Of a stretch of 12,039 nt of DNA, positions 1,308-12,039 are shown in pieces. Source of the stretch: Elusimicrobia bacterium RIFCSPLOWO2_01_FULL_54_10. GTDB lineage: Bacteria; Elusimicrobiota; Elusimicrobia; 2-02-FULL-39-32. Position numbers and translations under genes: made by a program. The first letter of the stretch is position 1. Every line of letters starts with the position of its first letter. The stretch covers positions 1,435-13,473 of the forward strand of contig MGUQ01000010.1 of the NCBI GenBank assembly GCA_001799975.1. Direction: 5' to 3'. A model generated the notes under the pieces. The model saw nothing but the letters and a program-made list of their open reading frames with translations. It was not told the origin of the DNA and ran no database searches.

Positions 1308-2708
1308 ATGAAACGCGCCATGATTCTATCTAAGGAAGATAAAAAATACCTCTGGCACCCCTTCACCCAGCAATGGGAGTGGGAGCGGAGCATCAACGAA
1401 AAGCCCCTGGTGATTGAGCGCGGAAACGGGAATTATCTTTATGATACAAGCGGGCGCAAATATTTTGACGGGGTTTCATCCCTTTGGGCCAATCTCCATG
1501 GCCACCGCAACCCTGCCATCGACAGGGCCATCAAGCAACAGCTCGCCAAAGTGGCTCACAGCACATTTTTGGGGCTCACCCATGAGCCAGGAATCCGCCT
1601 GGCTGAAGAGCTGGTCAAAATCGCTCCCAAAGGTCTTTCCCGGGTTTTCTATTCGGACAACGGCTCCACGGCCGTTGAAGTGGCCCTTAAAATGGCATTC
1701 CAATATCACGCGCAAAAGAAAGGCGGCAAGGCAAGGCCGGTTTTCCTGTCACTGAAAGAATCCTATCATGGCGACACTCTCGGTGCAGTCTCAGTGGGCG
1801 GGATCGATCTGTTCCACGAAAAGTTTGCCCCCCTGCTTTTCAAACGGGAAACGGCGATGTCCCCCCACTGCCATCGCTGTCCGCATAATCGATCGCAAAT
1901 AAGACATTCGTTTTATGGCTATCGCGGAGAAAAACCCATGCCGGGTGATTTCCGCAAAGAAACCGGATGCCGCTGGGAATGTTTGGCGGAGGTTGAGAAT
2001 AAACTTAAAAAGAACAAAGGCAAAATTGCCGCGGCAATTCTTGAGCCCGTCGTTCAGGGTGCGGCGGGAATCCGGGCGGCTCCTCCGGGTTACCTCTGGG
2101 GTTTTGCGCGGCTGTGCAAAAAATATGGGACGCTACTCATTGCCGACGAGGTGGCCACCGGATTTGGCCGGACCGGAAAGGCTTTCGCCTGCGAACAGGA
2201 GAATGTTTCGCCCGACATCCTTTGTCTTGCGAAGGGAATTTCAGGGGGATATTTGCCCCTGGCGGCAACCCTGGCGACGGAGACGATTTACAGGGCGTTC
2301 CTCGGAAAATGCGAAGAATTCAAAACTTTCTTTCACGGCCACACCTACACGGCCAATCCGCTTGCTTGCGCCGCGGGGCTGGCCAGTCTTTCACTCCTCA
2401 AACAAAAACTTTCCGGCGCCCGCCTGAAGCGGATCATTTCCGTTCTGCGCAAAGGCCTGGAGCGGATTGCGAAACTCCCCCAGGTGAGCCATGTCCGCGC
2501 GGCGGGGCTCATGGCTGGCATAGAACTCGTCCCTTTTCACCCTTCCGAGAGAATCGGCAAAAAAATCTGCATGCGGCTGCGAAAACTGGGAGTCCTTTTG
2601 CGGCCTTTGGGTGATGTTTTAGTGCTCATGCCCCCCCTTTCCTCTTCTGAAACTGAAATCAAAGATCTTACGGACATGATCGACCGTGCCATCCGCGCCG
2701 AAACCTAA
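1308..2708 (+). CDS. bioA: Adenosylmethionine-8-amino-7-oxononanoate aminotransferase (BioA)
   Basis: BioA is a PLP enzyme that converts KAPA to DAPA in biotin synthesis. At 466 aa it has typical class III aminotransferase length. LWHPFTQ (15-21) is the BioA N-terminal signature. DNGSTAVEVALKMAFQYH (117-134) and SYHGDT (152-157) are cofactor-site blocks. Asp280 in IADEVATGFGRTG contacts the PLP ring nitrogen, and Lys309 in ILCLAKGISGG is the Schiff-base lysine. FFHGHTYTANPLACAAG (341-357) completes the match. It resembles the Bacillus BioA type, some of which use lysine instead of SAM as amino donor, so the donor cannot be assigned here. A Cys/His-rich segment at 187-225 (CHRC...CRWEC) has a longer insert between its Cys pairs than I recall from relatives. 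No other bio gene is in the window. The ATG at 1308 is used; another at 1320 is possible. The next gene starts inside its 3' end. Confidence 0.93.
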   Translation: MKRAMILSKEDKKYLWHPFTQQWEWERSINEKPLVIERGNGNYLYDTSGRKYFDGVSSLWANLHGHRNPAIDRAIKQQLAKVAHSTFLGLTHEPGIRLAEELVKIAPKGLSRVFYSDNGSTAVEVALKMAFQYHAQKKGGKARPVFLSLKESYHGDTLGAVSVGGIDLFHEKFAPLLFKRETAMSPHCHRCPHNRSQIRHSFYGYRGEKPMPGDFRKETGCRWECLAEVENKLKKNKGKIAAAILEPVVQGAAGIRAAPPGYLWGFARLCKKYGTLLIADEVATGFGRTGKAFACEQENVSPDILCLAKGISGGYLPLAATLATETIYRAFLGKCEEFKTFFHGHTYTANPLACAAGLASLSLLKQKLSGARLKRIISVLRKGLERIAKLPQVSHVRAAGLMAGIELVPFHPSERIGKKICMRLRKLGVLLRPLGDVLVLMPPLSSSETEIKDLTDMIDRAIRAET

Positions 2709-3972
2709 GTCATTCGCTAAAAAAGGGCTCGTGCTCATTCCCTGGGCGGCGTACGCCCTGTTCGCCTGGGCGTTCATGCATGCGCCTGAGAAGCCGGCTC
2801 TTCTTTTTTCCCTATTTCTGCCATTGATTCTCTGGATCTATCACACGCACGAATCTGCTCTGGAGTCCCCCAGCATTCCCTGGCTCCTGGCAGGCTACTC
2901 GGCGCTCTTGATCTTCATATTCTTTCACCCTGCCCGCGCGGGATTTGCCGATACTCTGAGCCTCATCCTGCAATGGGTCATCATCGGCGCCTGCGCGGTG
3001 ATGGCCGTCGTTCAATTTGACGAATTGCAAAAAGAGGTTCTTATCACCCGCGACAAAACGGATGAGCTGTCCAAAGCCGTCAAAGACAAAACCAAGACAA
3101 ACGATTTTTACCGCCAGAAAATCCCGGCCCTTAAATCAAAAATCGGCGAGAGAAAGCGGCTGTCCACGGACGCCAAAGAAATGGGCACGCTCCTGGACCC
3201 GGGCCTGATCCGCAAAACCCTGATTGAAAAGGTGCAGAACCTTTTTCCGGCAGAAACGGTTTCTCTTTCCCCTTCCGTGACGGCCGCGACGGCTGCAACA
3301 GCGGGGAAGTCATCCATTTCCACCTCTCTGCATTCTGGAAAAACGCTCATGGGCACCTTGCGCGTGGATTCCGCGGCTCGCGCAAGATTCAGCGAAACGG
3401 ACATGCAACAAATTGAATTTTATGCTTCTCTGGCCACTCTGGCTTTGGAAAACGCCAAATTGTTTTCTGAAATCAACGCCCTGGCCACCCGCGACGGCCT
3501 CACAGGCCTGGCCACGCAAAGGATTTTTCTGGAGCGGCTGGCGGAGGAACTCCTGCGCGGCGGCAGATACCGCACCCCGGTGGCCCTCATCATGGCCGAC
3601 ATAGACCATTTCAAACATGTCAACGACGGCCACGGGCATTTGGCTGGCGACCAGGTGCTCAAAGACGTGAGCCAGATTTTTGCAGGCCGCATCCGCCCCG
3701 TGGACCTGGCCGCGCGCTACGGCGGCGAAGAGTTCTGCCTTGTGCTTCCGGGTTTAACGCTGCAAGAATCCTTTGGTCTGGCCGAAACCCTCCGGCGTGA
3801 AATTGAAGCCCGCGAGGTGCTCACGGGCAGCGCGCGCCTCAAAGTGACGGCCAGTTTTGGCTGCGCCGCGTTTCCGGATGACGCGCAAAGCGCCAGCCAG
3901 CTCGTGCGCAAGGCCGACGAAAGGCTTTACAAGGCCAAGTCCCAGGGCCGCAACCGGGTGATCAACGCATGA
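2686..3972 (+). CDS. Membrane diguanylate cyclase, TM-GAF-GGDEF (first of a tandem pair)
   Basis: Predicted to make c-di-GMP from two GTP at the inner membrane. There are about four hydrophobic segments (roughly residues 13-31, 37-53, 65-81 and 93-111), then a charged coiled-coil-like stretch (112-165). A poorly conserved GAF-like region covers about 168-260, and the GGDEF domain covers 265-428. DGLTGLA (270-276), DIDHFKHVND (305-314) and GGEEF (346-350) show an intact active site. RPVD at 337-340, five residues before GGEEF, is a complete I-site (RxxD) for product inhibition. The GTG at 2686 overlaps bioA by 23 bp, so it is probably cotranscribed with bioA; the exact start is uncertain because no good ribosome binding site is visible. 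The GAF ligand is unknown. It is paired with a second cyclase of the same length downstream. Confidence 0.93.
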   Translation: MPSAPKPKSFAKKGLVLIPWAAYALFAWAFMHAPEKPALLFSLFLPLILWIYHTHESALESPSIPWLLAGYSALLIFIFFHPARAGFADTLSLILQWVIIGACAVMAVVQFDELQKEVLITRDKTDELSKAVKDKTKTNDFYRQKIPALKSKIGERKRLSTDAKEMGTLLDPGLIRKTLIEKVQNLFPAETVSLSPSVTAATAATAGKSSISTSLHSGKTLMGTLRVDSAARARFSETDMQQIEFYASLATLALENAKLFSEINALATRDGLTGLATQRIFLERLAEELLRGGRYRTPVALIMADIDHFKHVNDGHGHLAGDQVLKDVSQIFAGRIRPVDLAARYGGEEFCLVLPGLTLQESFGLAETLRREIEAREVLTGSARLKVTASFGCAAFPDDAQSASQLVRKADERLYKAKSQGRNRVINA

Positions 3973-4016
3973 TCCCCCATCAATTCACGTTAGACAAGGT
4001 TGGTGGGGGATGATGC
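3967..4016 (+). promoter_or_regulatory. Long hairpin spanning the stop/start junction of the two cyclase genes
   Basis: The 5' arm (3967-3983: GCAT, G, ATCCCCCATCAA) pairs with the 3' arm (4000-4016: TTGGTGGGGGAT, G, ATGC). This gives a 17-position stem with one G-U pair, one G-G mismatch and a 16-nt loop. The 5' arm contains the stop codon of the upstream gene (3970-3972). The 3' arm contains the only candidate ribosome binding site (GGTGGGGG) and both possible ATG starts (4010 and 4013) of the downstream gene. No U-run follows, so it is not a standard intrinsic terminator. A role in translational coupling is inferred. Confidence 0.6.
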
Positions 4017-5296
4017 CTTCCTGGACCCCTGCAGCCGCCTCACTGGTTCCCGGCCTTATTGCCGCGAGCCTTGTGAGCCTGGCGTTTGCCAAACCGGGAA
4101 AAATGAAATTTTGGCTTTTGGCGATTGTTCCAATTGCATCGGCATTGGCGGCCGCCGGATTTGTGGGCCTTGAGGCTTCCCGGCGCTTTTTGTTTATGGC
4201 CAGCGCGGGCGCAAATGTTTTTGGCGCTTCAATATTTGTTTATTCCTTCTCGCGCTGGAAAGGCAAAAACCTCTTGCCTTGGGCAACCCGGCTGGAAGAA
4301 TTAAAGAAATCCCTGGAGCGCGAAGAAGCAGAACGCCTGAATTTGATTCGGGAATCCGAATCTCTGGAGTCTGAAACCCAGAGAAGCGTCAAAACGTATC
4401 GAGTGGTCAAAGGCCTCGGCGAAGCCCTCAACTGGGAAGAAATGGCCCCGCACATGGATTTTGCCATTCAGCAATGCATGGGGTTCAAAGACTACATCCT
4501 GTATCTTGCCGATGAGAACTCTGCATTGCAAAAAGTGCTGTTCAGGGGCGCCCGCATGGCGGACGCGCCGGAGCAGCCGTCGTCCGCTTCCAAATGGCAC
4601 GCGCGGAGCCATGAAACCTATCTGGAAATTCCCATCCGCCACGGCGGCCGCATGATCGCTCTTTTGTGGATGCGGGCTTCTCCGGCAATGGCGGCAAGGC
4701 CCAAAGAAGAAATCCTGGCCGAAGCGGATGAAATTTCTGAGGAACTGGTGATGGGCCTTGAGAAAGCCAGGTTATTTTCATCTCTGGAGAGGCTCTCGCG
4801 GCTGGACGGCTTGACGGGTGTGCACCGCAGGAAAGTTTTTGACGACAGGCTTCTTGAGGAAATCCGCCGCGCAAAAGCTTTCCGCACGAATTTTTCCGTG
4901 CTGATTTGCGACCTGGACCATTTCAAAAACATCAACGACACCTACGGCCACCAGGCAGGAGATGAAGTCCTCAAGCGCGTGGGGCGGCTCATGCAGGAAA
5001 GCGTGTATGAAACGGATTTTGTGGCCCGTTACGGCGGCGAGGAATTTGTCATCCTTCTGCCCCAAGCCGACCCCAAAGGCGTGCAGAGAAAAGCCGAAAC
5101 CATCCGGCAAAGGATGGAGGCCGAAAAATTCACCTTCGGCTGGAACGAGCTCAAGGTCACCGTGAGCATCGGCATTTCCCATTTTCCGGGGAATGGAACG
5201 GACGCAGCGGCGCTTCTTGCTGCGGCAGATTCCGCCCTGTATGCCGCCAAAGGCGCAGGCCGCAACCGTGTTGTCGACGCTTCTCAGATTTGGTAG
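4010..5296 (+). CDS. Membrane diguanylate cyclase, TM-GAF-GGDEF (second of a tandem pair, degenerate I-site)
   Basis: Also predicted to make c-di-GMP. About three hydrophobic segments (residues 11-27, 32-55 and 59-80) are followed by a coiled coil rich in Glu/Arg/Ser (92-130). A GAF-like domain lies at about 132-255, and the GGDEF domain at 262-424. DGLTGV (266-271), DLDHFKNIND (301-310) and GGEEF (342-346) indicate an active cyclase. At the I-site the sequence is YETD (333-336): Asp is kept but the Arg of RxxD is Tyr, so feedback inhibition by c-di-GMP may be weak or lost. It has the same length and layout as its upstream neighbour, though the sensory parts differ greatly, which suggests an old tandem duplication. 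Translation starts at ATG 4010 or 4013, both within the junction hairpin. A tRNA-Ser gene begins 27 nt after its stop. Confidence 0.93.
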   Translation: MMPSWTPAAASLVPGLIAASLVSLAFAKPGKMKFWLLAIVPIASALAAAGFVGLEASRRFLFMASAGANVFGASIFVYSFSRWKGKNLLPWATRLEELKKSLEREEAERLNLIRESESLESETQRSVKTYRVVKGLGEALNWEEMAPHMDFAIQQCMGFKDYILYLADENSALQKVLFRGARMADAPEQPSSASKWHARSHETYLEIPIRHGGRMIALLWMRASPAMAARPKEEILAEADEISEELVMGLEKARLFSSLERLSRLDGLTGVHRRKVFDDRLLEEIRRAKAFRTNFSVLICDLDHFKNINDTYGHQAGDEVLKRVGRLMQESVYETDFVARYGGEEFVILLPQADPKGVQRKAETIRQRMEAEKFTFGWNELKVTVSIGISHFPGNGTDAAALLAAADSALYAAKGAGRNRVVDASQIW

Positions 5297-5323: not shown

Positions 5324-5410
5324 GGAGGGGTGGCCGAGTGGCTTAAGGCGCCGCTCTCGAAAAGCGGTAGAGCTGAAAGGTTCTCGTGGGTTCAAATCCC
5401 ACCCCCTCCG
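5324..5410 (+). tRNA. tRNA-Ser(CGA)
   Basis: The acceptor stem GGAGGGG (5324-5330) pairs with CCCCTCC (5403-5409), with discriminator G at 5410. The D stem is GCC/GGC, and the anticodon stem CCGCT/AGCGG (5351-5355/5363-5367) is fully paired. The loop CTCGAAA carries anticodon CGA (5358-5360), which reads UCG. A long variable arm (GAGC/GTTC) marks a type II serine tRNA, and the T arm is GTGGG-TTCAAAT-CCCAC. The gene does not encode CCA (the next bases are CAC), so CCA must be added after transcription. Confidence 0.97.
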
Positions 5411-5444
5411 CACTTTTGCCACCCCGGAATAATTTTAAAATAAA

Positions 5445-6566: not shown

Positions 6567-8603
6567 ATGTCTAAAATAACCAAATATCTCCTGATCGCTT
6601 CCGGCATCTGCTTGCTTCTGTTGCTGGCAGGCGTTCTGACCGTCAAGAAGATGTTCCCGCCGGAAAAAATCCGGACGCTCATCACGGTGAAGGCATCTCA
6701 GTCCCTGTCCAGGGAAGTGCGGCTCGGGAAAATCCAGGCTGGGCTTTTCAAGGGCGTGCAGATCGATGATTTCGCAGTTTCCGAGCGGCCCACGTTCAAA
6801 GAGGGCACCTTCATCGAAGCCAAAGCTTTTGTGCTCAAATTCAACATCTGGGCCCTGCTGCGCAAGAAAGTGGTGATCGACCAGGTCCTCATTGATACAC
6901 CCAAAATTTCCGTCGTCCAATACGCCGACGGCAAAACATTCAATTTTTCCGATCTTCTCCAGGCCAAACCGGCTGAGAAGGCGGAAAAACCCAAAGCCGA
7001 GACTCCGGCTGAATCTGCGCCCATGTCCGTGACCGTCACGCGCGCGCAGATTGTGGGCGGCAGAGTCTCTTTTGTGGACATAAGCCCCCGCAAAATTCGT
7101 TTGACTCTGGACCCGGTGGATTTGACCGTGAAAGCTGCCGACATGACCAAGCCCATTTCTGTGGATCTGAAAGTGAAAGCGCAGGGCGCCCTGCAGGGAA
7201 AAGAGGTTCAAGCCGGGCTGGCCTTGAAATGCGTGCTGGAGCTTCTTGGGTCCAGGGTCAATATTGAATCCCTGGCCGTGGACCTGCCTGAATTGGATAT
7301 CAACGCCTCCGGTTCCGTCACAAATTTTCTGAATCCCGATCTGAATCCCGAAGTGAATCTTTCGCTCTCCATTGCAAATTTTAATTTTGAGTCCATTGGA
7401 CGCTGGACGGAAATTCCCAAGGGAATATCCTTCCCGCCGTCATCTTCTATCACGGCCACATTAAAGGGCGGCCTCAAATCCCTCAATTACGATCTCGTCC
7501 TGAAACTTCTCACGATGGAAGCCGCGGTTTCCGGAAACGCCAAGAACCTGACCGCTGAGTCTCCGACGGTCAAACTCACCGTCAAAACAAATTCTTTTGA
7601 CCTCGCAGGCTTTGCCGGCCTGGTAGAGGCGGCCAAACCTTACCAAGTCATGGGCAAGGCGTCGCTCGAAGCCAAAGCGGAAGGCAAAGTGAACGCCCTG
7701 GCCTATTCCGCAGCGCTCACGCTTGAGAACATCAGCGCAAAATATGATAAATATGCCATTGATAAAATCGGGGCAAGCGCGAAAATTTCCGCCAATCAGA
7801 TTGAGATCCCAAAATTGACCGGGCGCCTTGGAATGCAGGGCAAGGAAAGCTCGGATTTTGAGATCATATCGACCGTCAAGGACTTTTCCAATCCGGACAT
7901 CACTCTGGATGCCAATTTTAACACGCTGGACTTGGGCATGTTCGTCAGTGACGCCAAGAAAGGCGAACCCGCCAAACCCGCTTCCGCATTCCAGAGCGCA
8001 AAAACCGCGCCTTACAAGGGCCCTGTGATGAAATGCCGGGGAAGCGTGAAAATCGCAAAAGTCTTGTATCCCAAATTTGAAGGCCAGAATGCGCAGGCTG
8101 ACTGGAAGCTCACCGGCATCACTCCCGTTTTAGACAAGCTTGATGGAACCGCCAAATTTGAAATGAAGGACGGAAAAATCAAGAACATCCCCTTGCTCGC
8201 ATCGATCGCTCCCATCTTAAGGACAGACCCGTCCGCCCTGGCCTTCACGCGCATGGGCGGGACGATGAATTTTGCAAAGGGGACCGCCAAAACGGACGAT
8301 TTCAAAATCAATTCTCCCGCGGCCGACATCACGGCGCAGGGAACGGTCTATCTTCCCACCAGCATTCCGGACATGGTGCTCACAGCCAAGCTGCCGAAAG
8401 GTTCCCTGGGCGGGACTCTGGGTGAATTTTCTAACGACGCGGAAGGCCGCCCCACATTCGCCTTCAAGCTTAAGGGCAATTGGAAACCCGTTCTGGATAC
8501 CTCCAAAGCGGCTGAAAAGGCAAAGCAGGAAGTGCAGAAAAAGGCGACTGAAATCATTCAGAACGAGGGCAAAAAAATCCTGGAGGGGATTTTCAAGCGA
8601 TGA
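6567..8603 (+). CDS. AsmA-family envelope protein
   Basis: A 678-aa protein with a single N-terminal membrane anchor (about residues 7-26) and a large periplasmic part. The first 130 residues (for example VRLGKIQAGLFKGVQIDDFA at 51-70, then the 'holds for gene product' strands to 115) resemble the AsmA N-terminal domain. A Lys/Glu/Pro/Ala-rich linker sits at 132-152, then long repeated beta-strand-rich sequence. A typical AsmA C-terminal region (about 555-625) includes GTAKTDDFKINSPAADITAQ, and a Lys/Glu/Gln-rich helical tail follows (about 650-678). AsmA-like proteins, with TamB and YhdP, are thought to be bridge-like proteins moving phospholipid between the membranes of diderm bacteria; that role here is inferred from the family. 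It begins directly after the upstream stop (TAA then ATG) and overlaps the next gene by 4 bp (ATGA), so all three genes are probably cotranscribed. Confidence 0.88.
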   Translation: MSKITKYLLIASGICLLLLLAGVLTVKKMFPPEKIRTLITVKASQSLSREVRLGKIQAGLFKGVQIDDFAVSERPTFKEGTFIEAKAFVLKFNIWALLRKKVVIDQVLIDTPKISVVQYADGKTFNFSDLLQAKPAEKAEKPKAETPAESAPMSVTVTRAQIVGGRVSFVDISPRKIRLTLDPVDLTVKAADMTKPISVDLKVKAQGALQGKEVQAGLALKCVLELLGSRVNIESLAVDLPELDINASGSVTNFLNPDLNPEVNLSLSIANFNFESIGRWTEIPKGISFPPSSSITATLKGGLKSLNYDLVLKLLTMEAAVSGNAKNLTAESPTVKLTVKTNSFDLAGFAGLVEAAKPYQVMGKASLEAKAEGKVNALAYSAALTLENISAKYDKYAIDKIGASAKISANQIEIPKLTGRLGMQGKESSDFEIISTVKDFSNPDITLDANFNTLDLGMFVSDAKKGEPAKPASAFQSAKTAPYKGPVMKCRGSVKIAKVLYPKFEGQNAQADWKLTGITPVLDKLDGTAKFEMKDGKIKNIPLLASIAPILRTDPSALAFTRMGGTMNFAKGTAKTDDFKINSPAADITAQGTVYLPTSIPDMVLTAKLPKGSLGGTLGEFSNDAEGRPTFAFKLKGNWKPVLDTSKAAEKAKQEVQKKATEIIQNEGKKILEGIFKR

Positions 8604-10465
8604 TTGAAGATTTTCTGGCCAACTTCGGCAAAACCTTGAGCCGCGTCAATCTTTATTCCGTGAATCATCCGTTGGTCCAGGAATCCGTGAATAACTCCTA
8701 TGAAGGGCTTGCCGCCCTTCTTGAAAAGGAGCCCGAAGTCATCCTGGCCAGCTCCGAAGGCAAACTTCTGGTGAACGGCTCCGTTGCCGGAGGCGTGGCC
8801 TCGGTCCAGCAGGCGCTCATCCAGTTTTTTGAAAAAAATCAGCTGTACAGCGTCACTTTCAAACGGGGCTTGAGCGTGGATGAAATCTTCACCTTTTACA
8901 AGCTTTTCACGGGCAGAAAAGACGTCAAGGGGCCTGAGGATTTCGCCAGGTTTTTGTCTGAGGAGAAGGCCGTCCACATTGCGGTGAATGCCGCGTTTTT
9001 TTCAAAAGTCTCCGAAAAAGGAGAGGACGGCGAAGGCGCAGGGGCTGGCGCCGGCGGCGGCGCGGGCGCGGGACCAGGAAGCGGCGGAGGCGGCGGAAAG
9101 GGCAAAAGCGCCGCAGCATCGGCCAGGGAAAAAACTGCCGAACTGATGCAGAAGCTGGAAAACATGTCCCTGGATACCATGCTCTGGGAAATCATCCGCC
9201 TGGCCGTGCCGGACCCCGAAGACCAAAAAAAGATTTTTGACGTCATTTTCAAGCAGCTTCAAGGCGAGTTGGCCATGCAAGTGGAAAAAGCCACGCATGC
9301 GCTCAAGCAGGAAAAACAAAAAGTCGTCAACGAGCAGGAACGCACGGAATCCGTGATACAAACGATGGCCGAAGGCGTGGTGATGGTGGACAGCGAGGGC
9401 CGGATCGTGATGATGAATTCCGTGGCGGAAAATATCTATGGCCGCACCTTCACCGAAGTGAAGGGCCAGAAAATTGAGGACCTGCGGGGAGACAATGTGA
9501 TGCTGAGCATGGCTCAGGAAGTGGTGAGCCCCGGCGACCGGGCCATTTCAAGGGAGATCCGGGTGCAAAGCGCCCAGAACACCCGGACCACGCTCAAACA
9601 GAGCACCGCCATGATTGAAAACCCCGAAGGCAAAGTGGTGGGGATGGTTTCCATCTTGAACGACATCGCCAAGCAAAAAGAGCTTCAGGAGATGCAGGAC
9701 CAGTTCCTTCACAATGTCACCCACGAACTCCGCTCTCCCCTCACGGCCATGAAAGCCTCCCTGGCCACACTGGCCGGCGAACAGGATTTGAAAATGACCT
9801 CAGCGCACAGAAACCTGCTGGCCATTGCAAACCGCAACATCGACCGGCTCGCCCGCCTGGTGAACGACATTTTAGACTTCGCCAAGATCGCGGAAGGCAA
9901 GGTGACCGTCAACATCCGGCCTGTCGACACCCAATCTTTCATTCAGGATACCCTGTCGGGATTTCAGTCCTGGGCAAAAACCAAAAATATCACCCTGGAA
10001 TATGCCGCCAACGGCTCCGTGCCCCGCGTGATGGCGGACTATGACCGCATCACGCAAGTGCTGGTCAACCTGCTTTCCAACGCCATCAAGTTCACCCCTA
10101 CGGGCGGCAAGGTCACCGTTCGGACGCAAAAATCCCCCCTGACGGTTGAAATCTCCGTCACGGACACCGGCCCCGGCATTCCCAAGCTGGATCAGGAGAA
10201 GCTTTTTAAGAAATTTTTTCAATTGAAGCAGACGGAAAAGTCGGATGTTCCGGGCACGGGGCTGGGGCTCTACATCACAAAAAGAATCGTGGAGCTGCAT
10301 AAGGGCGAGATCGGATTCATCAGCGATGAAGGAAAAGGCACGACCTTTTGGTTTACTCTGCCGTTGGTGCCGGAATCCGCCAAAATGGAAGCCGCCGCTG
10401 CCTCGTCAGCTGCGCAGTCTGTGGCGAGAAAGAAAAGCTGGCTGTCAAAAATTTTCGGCAGCTGA
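8600..10465 (+). CDS. Soluble PAS-domain sensor histidine kinase with an uncharacterised N-terminal module
   Basis: A 621-aa kinase with no membrane segment. Residues 1-135 form an N-terminal module (NLYSVNHPLVQESVNN at 17-32, GKLLVNG at 54-60, then SVTFKRGLSVDEIFTFYKLF). It resembles a region I have seen ahead of varied output domains in other bacteria, function unknown. A Gly/Ala-rich linker follows (144-169), then a helical stretch and coiled coil (175-250), and a PAS domain (about 250-358; GVVMVDSEGRIVMMN). The HisKA domain has phospho-acceptor His375 in HNVTHELRSPLTAMKAS. The ATPase domain has the N box (Asn490, Asn494), G1 DTGPGIP (522-528), F box (534-540) and G2 GTGLGLY (552-558). The tail ends RKKSWLSKIFGS, basic and amphipathic. 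No response regulator is adjacent, so it is an orphan kinase. It overlaps the AsmA gene by ATGA; a GGAGGGG lies about 12 nt upstream of the start. tRNA-Ser(GGA) starts 4 nt after its stop. Confidence 0.94.
   Translation: MIEDFLANFGKTLSRVNLYSVNHPLVQESVNNSYEGLAALLEKEPEVILASSEGKLLVNGSVAGGVASVQQALIQFFEKNQLYSVTFKRGLSVDEIFTFYKLFTGRKDVKGPEDFARFLSEEKAVHIAVNAAFFSKVSEKGEDGEGAGAGAGGGAGAGPGSGGGGGKGKSAAASAREKTAELMQKLENMSLDTMLWEIIRLAVPDPEDQKKIFDVIFKQLQGELAMQVEKATHALKQEKQKVVNEQERTESVIQTMAEGVVMVDSEGRIVMMNSVAENIYGRTFTEVKGQKIEDLRGDNVMLSMAQEVVSPGDRAISREIRVQSAQNTRTTLKQSTAMIENPEGKVVGMVSILNDIAKQKELQEMQDQFLHNVTHELRSPLTAMKASLATLAGEQDLKMTSAHRNLLAIANRNIDRLARLVNDILDFAKIAEGKVTVNIRPVDTQSFIQDTLSGFQSWAKTKNITLEYAANGSVPRVMADYDRITQVLVNLLSNAIKFTPTGGKVTVRTQKSPLTVEISVTDTGPGIPKLDQEKLFKKFFQLKQTEKSDVPGTGLGLYITKRIVELHKGEIGFISDEGKGTTFWFTLPLVPESAKMEAAAASSAAQSVARKKSWLSKIFGS
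9029..9106 (+). repeat. Low-complexity GC-rich tract encoding a Gly/Ala linker
   Basis: About 75 bp of near-pure GGC/GCG/GGA codons encode a run of glycine and alanine (kinase residues 144-169) between the N-terminal module and the coiled coil. It is a flexible linker and a likely site of slippage or length variation among strains. Confidence 0.8.
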
Positions 10466-10469
10466 AATT

Positions 10470-10559
10470 GGAGGGGTGCGTGAGTGGCTTAAACGGCTCG
10501 CCTGGAAAGCGTGTGTCCTTTAACCGGGACCGAGAGTTCGAATCTCTCCCCCTCCGCCA
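10470..10559 (+). tRNA. tRNA-Ser(GGA), CCA encoded
   Basis: The acceptor stem GGAGGGG (10470-10476) pairs with CCCCTCC (10549-10555). Discriminator G is at 10556, and CCA is encoded at 10557-10559. The D stem is CGT/ACG. The anticodon loop CTGGAAA (10502-10508) has anticodon GGA (10504-10506), reading UCC and UCU. A long variable arm (GTCC/GGAC) and T arm GAGAG-TTCGAAT-CTCTC complete a type II serine tRNA. The anticodon stem CTCGC/GCGTG has a U-U mismatch (10498 with 10512). The gene begins 4 nt after the kinase stop codon with no clear promoter of its own, so it is probably cut from the operon transcript. Confidence 0.95.
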
Positions 10560-10652: not shown

Positions 10653-11756
10653 GTGCCAGACCGACCGAACCTTCGTCTCACCAACCGCGTCCAGCTTACC
10701 ACCCGCATGGCCGTGCGGTTTTCAAATGTTCTGGAGATGTCGGAGGAAGATGTTACCCGCCTCTCCGCCATCCTGGAAAAAGATCCCCTGTTTCAAAAAC
10801 TTTTTCGCGCCCAATCCCCTGAGTTTAAGGTTTTCTCCCGCCAAAAATTCGCGGGCGCCCAGCTCTCCACGACTTTTTATGAGATCCCCGAGTCCAGCGC
10901 AGGGCCCGCTGCTTCCCCCGACGTTGAAAAACTGATTGAAAACCGCCAGAGCCTTGTGGAAGAGATCCGGCGTTTGGGTTCGGATAAATATGAAGCTTAT
11001 TTTTTAAACGGCGACGGCGAAAAAACTGCGGAACACGCGGCGGCGGAACTGGGAATAACTGTGGAACTCGCCCGCGACATTCAGAAACTCACGGATCAAG
11101 TCCTGATGAACCCGGATTATTTCGCGGCCAAGCTGTCCCATCCGGGCTCCCCGGACATCCAGGTGCGCTACAGCCGCCTGGCGCAATACACCGCCGGCCC
11201 GGACGGCAAACCCGAACTTGTTTTTCTCTCCCCCGGCCTGGCGCGCGGCACATATAAAATCGATTATGAGCGCTTAAAAAAGCTGAGGGACGGCGCCGCG
11301 CTGACCGAGGCGGAGCGCCGGAAGCTTCAGGAAACGGTGCGCACCCTGGAAATGATCAACTCCAGAAAAAATCTCATATTCAGAATCCTTACATTCCTTC
11401 CCAAATGGCAGGCCGGATTTTTCAGCTCACTGGATTGGACGGATTTGACGCCCTTTTCCCAGAAAAAAGCGGCCGGGGAGCTGAGCGTGACCCCCGCCGC
11501 CGTGTGCCGCGCCATTCAGGAACGCTCCGTGGTGGCCCCCAACGGCCAGGAAGCCCCGCTCACGGAATTTTTCCCCTCCGCCAAGGACATCCTTAAGAAA
11601 AAAATGACCGGGTTTGTGGCAGGCAGCAAGGACAAAACAGACCAGCAAATCCGCGACGCCATCGAACGCGATTTTGGAGTCAGGCTTTCGCGGCGCTCGG
11701 TGAATGTCTACAGGAATGAGATCTTAGGCAGGAAGAAAAGACTAATCTCCAAATGA
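10653..11756 (+). CDS. Divergent, shortened sigma-54 (RpoN)-like protein
   Basis: A 367-aa protein whose layout follows sigma-54, though it is about 100 residues shorter. Residues 11-51 (LTTRMAVRF at 15-23, VLEMSEEDV at 26-34, LEKDPLFQKL at 41-50) resemble region I (LTPQLQQAIKLLQMS...E.NPLLE), but the Gln cluster is gone. Residues 95-155 resemble part of the core-binding domain (FLNGDGEKTAEHAAAELGIT), with much of that domain missing. After PDIQVRYS (167-174), IDYERLKKL (203-211) and INSRKNLIFRIL (235-246) comes a C-terminal region like the sigma-54 DNA-binding domain. LTPFSQKKAAGELSVTPAAV (265-284) and APNGQEAPLTEFFPSA (295-310) match the HTH and LKYFFS blocks. SRRSVNVYRN (346-355) is a variant RpoN box keeping both arginines. 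The GTG start at 10653 lacks a Shine-Dalgarno; ATG 10707 would remove much of region I. It could be a true alternative sigma-54 or a DNA-binding derivative. Confidence 0.8.
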   Translation: MPDRPNLRLTNRVQLTTRMAVRFSNVLEMSEEDVTRLSAILEKDPLFQKLFRAQSPEFKVFSRQKFAGAQLSTTFYEIPESSAGPAASPDVEKLIENRQSLVEEIRRLGSDKYEAYFLNGDGEKTAEHAAAELGITVELARDIQKLTDQVLMNPDYFAAKLSHPGSPDIQVRYSRLAQYTAGPDGKPELVFLSPGLARGTYKIDYERLKKLRDGAALTEAERRKLQETVRTLEMINSRKNLIFRILTFLPKWQAGFFSSLDWTDLTPFSQKKAAGELSVTPAAVCRAIQERSVVAPNGQEAPLTEFFPSAKDILKKKMTGFVAGSKDKTDQQIRDAIERDFGVRLSRRSVNVYRNEILGRKKRLISK

Positions 11757-12039
11757 AATCCCAGTGGCCCGCGCCGCGCGCACTTCCTCACCCATAGGGT
11801 CCACCAACCTGGGTTTGCCCACCGCATCAGCAATAGGAACGCCTCTGATGCTAGTTCCCCGCAAAGACGCCATGCTCCCGAATTTCCCCTCCGCGATGAG
11901 TTCCACAGCTTTCACGCCGAACCGGGTGGCCAGCCAGCGGTCGTAAGCCGTGGGGATGCCGCCCCTCTGCAAATGGCCCAGCACGGTCACGCGGGTTTCA
12001 ATGCCGGTCTTCTCTTCAATGTCGCGGGCCACTTTGGCG
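11742..12039 (-). CDS. pfkA: 6-phosphofructokinase, C-terminal part (runs off right edge)
   Basis: Phosphofructokinase phosphorylates fructose 6-phosphate in glycolysis. Only the last 98 or so codons are present. LGHLQRGGIPTAYDRWLATR is the diagnostic C-terminal motif; its His and Arg bind the sugar phosphate (His249 and Arg252 in E. coli PfkA). EGKFGSMASLRGTSI and VPIADAVG continue the match, and the protein ends GISFGD before a TAG stop. Residues that separate ATP from pyrophosphate enzymes lie outside the window, so the phosphate donor cannot be called. The 3' end overlaps the end of the RpoN-like gene on the other strand by 15 bp, leaving no room for a terminator between them. Confidence 0.95.
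   Translation of the reverse strand, partial: AKVARDIEEKTGIETRVTVLGHLQRGGIPTAYDRWLATRFGVKAVELIAEGKFGSMASLRGTSIRGVPIADAVGKPRLVDPMGEEVRAARATGISFGD

Follow-up and report, generated by a model that had tools for sequence, protein, structure and literature searches.

The DNA analysed here is a stretch of 12,039 nucleotides from Elusimicrobia bacterium RIFCSPLOWO2_01_FULL_54_10 (contig MGUQ01000010.1, positions 1,435 to 13,473 of the forward strand); the window means this whole stretch. It contains a gene for a short protein related to sigma-54 (sigma54-A), which is preceded by a histidine kinase gene and a tRNA-Ser gene and converges with a phosphofructokinase gene (Table 1). The open reading frame (ORF) of sigma54-A is intact, and in an alignment its start position is nearly matched in several relatives from other lineages.

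Sigma54-A is a divergent, unusually short sigma-54

Pfam Sigma54_DBD (PF04552) matched residues 222-357 of sigma54-A (E-value 2.8e-10; 40.6 bits against a cut-off of 22.8), whereas Sigma54_AID (PF00309) and Sigma54_CBD (PF04963) gave no match up to an E-value of 10 within HMMER's filters; one of the three profiles named in a preliminary description of this DNA therefore recognised the protein. The TIGR02395 rpoN model aligned with residues 218-357 only (1.5e-12) and scored 47.3 of the 277.35 bits set as its equivalog cut-off. NCBIfam sigma-54 models matched only the C-terminal part as well, from residue 204 onward. PF04552 matched all 44 short-form members at E ≤ 1. As PF04963 is outside the 25 families listed for these members, it matches at most 4 of the 44 at that threshold.

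When a predicted model of sigma54-A was searched with Foldseek, the best 26 matches were all sigma-54 chains, indicating that the likeness is above chance. The predicted models have the overall sigma-54 fold, and the best structure alignments begin at residues 11-16. Profile-profile comparison of the short and canonical proteins gave an E-value of 4e-31 across columns 101-370 of the short profile. The shortness remarked on earlier is borne out by the relatives, as the 44 short proteins have 336-394 amino acids compared to 447-502 in 24 canonical ones. Profiles and Foldseek also agree with the preliminary description of a divergent sigma-54 with a degenerate region I, a shortened core-binding part and a kept RpoN box. 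We conclude that sigma54-A is a real, divergent sigma-54 that is unusually short. 

Domains lost and residues kept

Two alignments of short-form sequences were used, A1 with 27 and A3 with 44. Region I of sigma54-A retains LxL near the N-terminus, with LExDPLFQKL replacing the canonical LExNPxLEE, and contains 2 glutamines in 52 residues (mean 2.95 in the 44 short relatives and 6.17 in the 24 canonical proteins). The profile of residues 1-60 matched canonical region I alone (local E-value 5e-4 over 45 columns; next piece, 0.075). Residues 50-95 of the short form matched no canonical piece in the piecewise profile comparison; a segment specific to the family lies in the place of region II. The helical piece that follows tied between the two canonical core-binding subdomains, with local E-values of 1e-5 to CBD1 and 1.2e-5 to CBD2. 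Whole-profile alignment placed this piece on the second canonical subdomain; given the tie, we dropped the assignment of the lost subdomain to the first or the second. The piecewise matches indicate that region II and one of the two core-binding subdomains are missing from the short form. Published structures place region II in the paths of downstream DNA and of RNA, and show RNA exit blocked by the core-binding domain (PMC7057263, PMC5505868). Lacking much of these parts, the short form may leave the polymerase less plugged.

R238 of the extra-long helix, aligned to E. coli R336 (E. coli residue numbers are counted from the alignment) was present in 27/27 sequences of A1, and in A3 it was arginine in 39/44 and lysine in 4/44. 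R286, aligned to E. coli R383, was kept in all 44 short members. The helix-turn-helix, the glutamine-poor region I and the sequence SRRSVNVYRN at 346-355 were all found as first described; the arginine pair of this RpoN box was present in 43/44 (R347) and 44/44 (R348) short members. The lysine of the full ARRTVAKYRE type was found in none of the 44 compared to 24/24 canonical proteins. R383 is described as reading the -12 element and R455/R456 the -24 element, with the GAFTGA loops of activators contacting region I leucines (PMC9770992). A change of R336 or deletion of region I is reported to allow bypass of the activator on a pre-formed bubble (PMC5505868). That the key residues are kept argues that activator dependence is kept.

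Table 1. Coordinates of sigma54-A, its parts and its neighbours in the window
Feature	Position	Strand	Remarks
PAS-HisKA-HATPase histidine kinase gene, 5′ of sigma54-A	8600..10465	+	similar neighbour in L051 and L052
tRNA-Ser (GGA), between histidine kinase gene and sigma54-A	10470..10559	+	
Short sigma-54 gene (sigma54-A)	10653..11756	+	GTG start, 367 amino acids
Degenerate region I, residues 1-52	10653..10808	+	profile and model; helices 8-28 and 31-43 (second model)
Family-specific conserved segment in place of region II, residues 63-77	10839..10883	+	consensus RQRFPxxxLSxSFYE (alignment A1)
Single helical core-binding subdomain, residues 84-157	10902..11123	+	canonical sigma-54 has two
Extra-long helix, residues 219-252	11307..11408	+	S237-R238 aligned to E. 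coli S335-R336
Helix-turn-helix, residues 270-288	11460..11516	+	R286 aligned to E. coli R383, the -12 element reader
RpoN box SRRSVNVYRN, residues 346-355	11688..11717	+	arginine pair kept; V352 instead of canonical lysine
Phosphofructokinase gene (pfk), 3′ end, convergent to sigma54-A	11742..12039	-	

Distribution of the short form

We searched 149 Elusimicrobiota genomes, sampled evenly from a larger group, and found the sigma-54 DNA-binding domain in 43, in 42 of them above the cut-off (G009 was tallied as sigma-bearing on a sub-cut-off match only). The core-binding domain was found in two genomes, as a full canonical gene in G070 and as a weak match in G043. Apart from G070, 42 genomes with the DNA-binding domain remain, and 40 of them supplied short-family ORFs. 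Of these 68 ORFs, 60 were 340-398 amino acids long and five were shorter (119-323); three were longer, at 422-466 when called from the first start codon. The short form thus appears to be the usual sigma-54 in Elusimicrobiota. The lone clear canonical rpoN in the 149 genomes (L249:2160-3545, in G070) shares 74% identity with a protein that carries the label Candidatus Omnitrophica; its other close relatives (70-76%) are unlabelled or, in one case, a partial protein labelled Nealsonbacteria. This gene likely reflects transfer or bin contamination.

Restriction of the short form to Elusimicrobiota did not prove strict: the short-family profile also matched 20 of 35 genomes in the phylum to which a record labelled candidate division TA06 belongs. 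Three of these (G149, G176 and G183; loci L257, L258 and L259) matched nearly the full profile length and carry the short form, which may reflect either transfer or mis-binning. The other matches start at profile position 165 or later; seven were fetched (405-421 amino acids), and all three that were scanned had the three canonical domains. Thirteen viral stretches matched a pattern, none of which was confirmed as a relative.

Elusimicrobium minutum is listed in a 2011 survey as having neither sigma-54 nor activator (PMC3162934), in agreement with the 105 genomes having neither (see below). In literature on Elusimicrobiota sigma-54/RpoN and on truncated, atypical, divergent or short sigma54, the short form was absent from titles and abstract openings. 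The few named relatives are labelled hypothetical protein, transposase, XRE-family regulator or VapI antidote. That sigma54-A scores far under the NCBI cut-off and its relatives are otherwise named may be the reason for which sigma-54 is overlooked by annotation in Elusimicrobiota.

Co-occurrence and linkage with AAA+ activators

AAA+ activators were found at E ≤ 1e-30 in 41 of the 149 genomes. Forty genomes had both sigma-54 and activator, three had sigma-54 only, one had an activator only and 105 had neither (Fisher p 1.5e-31). Of the 68 short sigma-54 ORFs, a count that includes fragments at contig ends and excludes the canonical G070 gene, 44 had an activator within 3 kb and 22 within 350 bp; in 15 the activator lay on the same strand at ≤100 bp, with some genes overlapping. 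Copy numbers of sigma-54 and activator genes per genome were correlated (Spearman 0.74; 40 genomes with 70 sigma and 83 activator genes). For this count pieces of one gene were merged by hand, sub-cut-off fragments G027:C49 and G054:C14 were included, and G087 was given one sigma gene, a partial second (L150) having been seen later. Adjacency and copy-number correlation suggest that sigma and activator genes form cassettes, whereas a single rpoN is the usual arrangement. Among 81 activator ORFs remaining after removal of duplicates and matches below 150 bits (loci L150-L232), the loop was GAFTGA in 46, GAFTDA in 24 and another near form in 11. GAFTDA is named in a Desulfovibrio paper among the variations that would keep activation (PMC4641369).

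Candidate -24/-12 promoters

We searched 1.04 Mb around sigma-54 and activator genes for exact TGGCAY-N5-TTGCW. This yielded 31 sites compared to none with the backward control; in the same DNA, spacers of 2, 3, 4, 6, 7 and 8 gave 0, 3, 1, 0, 1 and 5 sites. At the background rate, taken from the remaining DNA of 40 genomes, 1.41 sites would be expected instead of 31 (Poisson P 1e-30); 8 kb of the 1.04 Mb come from G089, a genome outside these 40. The wide regions exclude G009, G021, G027:C49 and G054:C14. For 21 of the 31 sites, a sigma-54 or activator gene lay no more than 300 bp away. Some sites precede sigma-54 genes themselves, and others precede genes that adjoin activators or sigma genes. 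With the sixth base of TGGCAN left free, it was T in 28 sites, A in 18, G in 6 and C in 3. The published -24 element is given as TGGCAC (PMC12316311), and the shift of this base from C to T/A may be linked to the loss of the RpoN-box lysine.

Nine proteins encoded downstream of sites were compared with Pfam. Two were radical-SAM proteins and two response-regulator receivers; the others were a ketoacyl synthase, a fibronectin-III protein, a TPR protein and an ABC substrate-binding protein, and the product of the gene at the C20 site of the window's own genome had no match. The radical-SAM genes (L239:5921-7312 and L242:1489-2865) follow -24/-12 sites in the vicinity of short sigma-54 genes, and their loci are possible peptide-modifying clusters.

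Two sigma-54 copies and recurring sites in the lineage of the window

Two sigma-54 genes were found in the genome of the window (79% complete), in line with the earlier idea of a second sigma-54; a canonical rpoN was not found beside them (no Sigma54_CBD match). A sigma-54 activator, the other element looked for, is present (L019:1375-2763, minus strand; PF00158 2e-67) and has a GAFTGA loop. Two related loci, L051 and L052, share the order histidine kinase, sigma54-A and then converging ackA and a second sigma-54 gene (sigma54-B), with pfk between in L051. In the window's genome, contig C10 ends within pfk beside copy A, and C21 ends within a pfk-like gene after copy B and ackA; as both end inside such genes, a similar arrangement around an ackA-pfk module is likely. 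A and B are alike in architecture and key residues and fall in separate clades of a quick tree with 37 open forks and long branches, from which three fragments below 300 amino acids were excluded and whose compact A and B clades alone are relied on here. At position 282 copy A of this genome has alanine; copy B has serine, as do 34/44 short members. Relatives in the clade of sigma54-A share 42-65% identity and have open frames in independent lineages.

The genome contains four exact -24/-12 sites. One follows the activator (C20), one precedes a gene run encoding FlgD_ig, PorP/SprF-like and response-regulator proteins (C125), and one precedes a small winged-helix gene (C129). As called, the first ORF of this run encloses the C125 site, which is upstream of a more likely start. 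Like sites preceded like genes in two related genomes, the C20 type in both G150 and G151, the C125 type in G150 and the C129 type in G151; gene correspondence was judged by eye from protein likeness. Identity of the flanks to the own site was 11-21/50 upstream and 12-25/50 downstream, and GTATAT after TTGCW was common to six of these seven recurring sites. Some candidate promoters of the lineage precede genes that look like those of secreted or surface proteins. In L251 and L268 a gene that by eye resembles an ECF-type sigma factor lies upstream of the winged-helix-like gene with its recurring site.

Probable function of the short form and alternative explanations

Sigma54-A is probably a streamlined, working sigma-54 of a kind that is normal in Elusimicrobiota, a reading to which we assign a probability of about 0.82. 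It draws on homology, fold, residue conservation, co-occurrence, linkage, promoter enrichment and the recurrence of sites before like genes, from which we infer core binding, silencing and activation, and likewise the assignment of promoters to A or B and a dedicated pairing of sigma and activator. Core RNA polymerase would be bound via the reduced part, made up of the single helical subdomain and the extra-long helix; the helix-turn-helix and RpoN box would read -24/-12 promoters of the form TGGCAW-N5-TTGCW; TGGCATTGTTATTGCT-type promoters are the proposed targets. The protein would lock the polymerase in the closed complex, to be released when region I is pulled by an AAA+ enhancer-binding protein. 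Elusimicrobiota would have one to few copies of this sigma-54, often encoded beside an activator, and in the window's lineage copies A and B would flank the ackA-pfk module.

Several observations weigh against this reading. Pfam recognises no core-binding domain in sigma54-A, and with region II and half of that domain gone, core binding is putative. The Fisher test takes genomes as independent, with shared ancestry uncorrected. In the own genome, which is 79% complete, a single strong activator was found alongside the two sigma genes, and none lies beside the window copy in the part of the contig that was read. Six of the 31 promoter sites overlap an ORF of >150 amino acids as called. Whole-genome motif density was 1.65/Mb in 40 sigma-54-bearing genomes and 1.99/Mb in 105 sigma-54-less ones, with ratios to the backward control of 2.5 and 2.1; as the densities do not differ, we rejected the idea that an excess of the motif across a genome marks the presence of sigma-54. 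Enrichment is confined to the surroundings of sigma-54 and activator genes. A one-mismatch scan of the own genome gave 29 matches against 39 with the backward control, and the fourth exact site of that genome faces away from neighbouring genes. G150 and G151 together have seven exact sites against four backward, so the count alone is weak; recurrence before like genes is the point.

The missing region II and core-binding subdomain, together with the lack of a Pfam core-binding match in sigma54-A, in its genome and in all but at most 4 of the 44 short members, would also suit a sigma-54-derived DNA-binding protein that does not bind core and acts as a repressor or architectural factor at -24/-12 promoters. 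This is improbable, as it leaves the activators of 40 short-form genomes without any sigma-54 found to act on, and the extra-long helix is kept together with the R336-aligned residue. Altered activator dependence or passive promoter occupation without core, as first suggested, is unsupported: the family co-occurs and is linked with GAFTGA-type AAA+ activators, and correctly spaced -24/-12 sites were found near the genes and in the lineage. The view of sigma54-A as an odd paralog of a normal rpoN fails, under the refuting condition set in the preliminary description itself, because no canonical copy was found in the own genome (79% complete), only one clear one was found in 149 genomes and the short form is the usual one for the phylum. 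A milder version, compatible with a streamlined working sigma-54, is that B serves as the general sigma-54, and that A depends on activators in an altered way or controls a narrow regulon. The two convergent copies around ackA, their separate clades, alanine 282 in A and the one strong activator point this way. We consider it rather unlikely, given the same architecture and key residues in both copies, no sign of differing activator dependence, and the two and three activators of G150 and G151, respectively.

A degenerate region I in a shortened protein could also mark a decaying, pseudogene-like rpoN as in Neisseria, whose rpoN-like sequence is likewise a shortened sigma-54 relative, the meningococcal sigma-N being reported as non-functional or non-canonical in function (PMC6755734). 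The open frames at 42-65% identity in independent lineages, with key residues and neighbours conserved, make this very improbable. Moreover, the Neisseria forms are described as losing the helix-turn-helix and/or RpoN box (PMC6755734), both of which are conserved in the short form. A bolder extension of the streamlined working sigma-54 is a re-engineered system in which the short form was multiplied in cassettes, each copy working mainly with its adjacent activator, and in which the TGGCAW code shifted with loss of the lysine. We hold this tentatively, as less likely than not. If true, region II and one core-binding subdomain would be dispensable for activator-dependent initiation, and one sigma serving all would be no rule.

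Relation to known sigma-54 systems

Sigma-54 is usually viewed as one conserved protein per genome serving many activators. The rpoN copies of Bradyrhizobium, Rhizobium, Rhodobacter and Xanthomonas are full-length. Those genomes are likewise described as having more than one sigma-54 gene, with possible promoter differences (PMC3162934), whereas the Elusimicrobiota copies fetched are of the short form, with no ordinary copy found beside them. The order and predicted fold of the probable region I, core-binding subdomain, extra-long helix, helix-turn-helix and RpoN box are as in canonical sigma-54 (TIGR02395; PF00309/PF04963/PF04552), as are the GG-N10-GC promoter spacing and the association with AAA+ activators. 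The short form differs in being about 100 residues shorter, in lacking region II along with roughly half the core-binding domain, in its glutamine-poor region I and lost RpoN-box lysine, in a -24 element of TGGCAT/A rather than TGGCAC, and in a sigma gene that often adjoins an activator gene. Region II and the core-binding domain are described as plugging polymerase channels (PMC7057263). A natural form without much of these parts, spread through a phylum and with activators and promoters apparently intact, tests what core binding and silencing need; the lysine loss paired with the change from C to T/A offers a direct, mutable test of promoter recognition.

Neighbouring genes

Genes converging on sigma54-A in relatives are pfk (L051 only), ackA and sigma54-B. 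A tandem pair of GGDEF (diguanylate cyclase) genes lies 5′ of the sigma-54 region (2686-3972 and 4010-5296, plus strand), and a relative of the second is present in L051. The window contains a second tRNA-Ser gene (CGA) at 5324-5411 on the plus strand.
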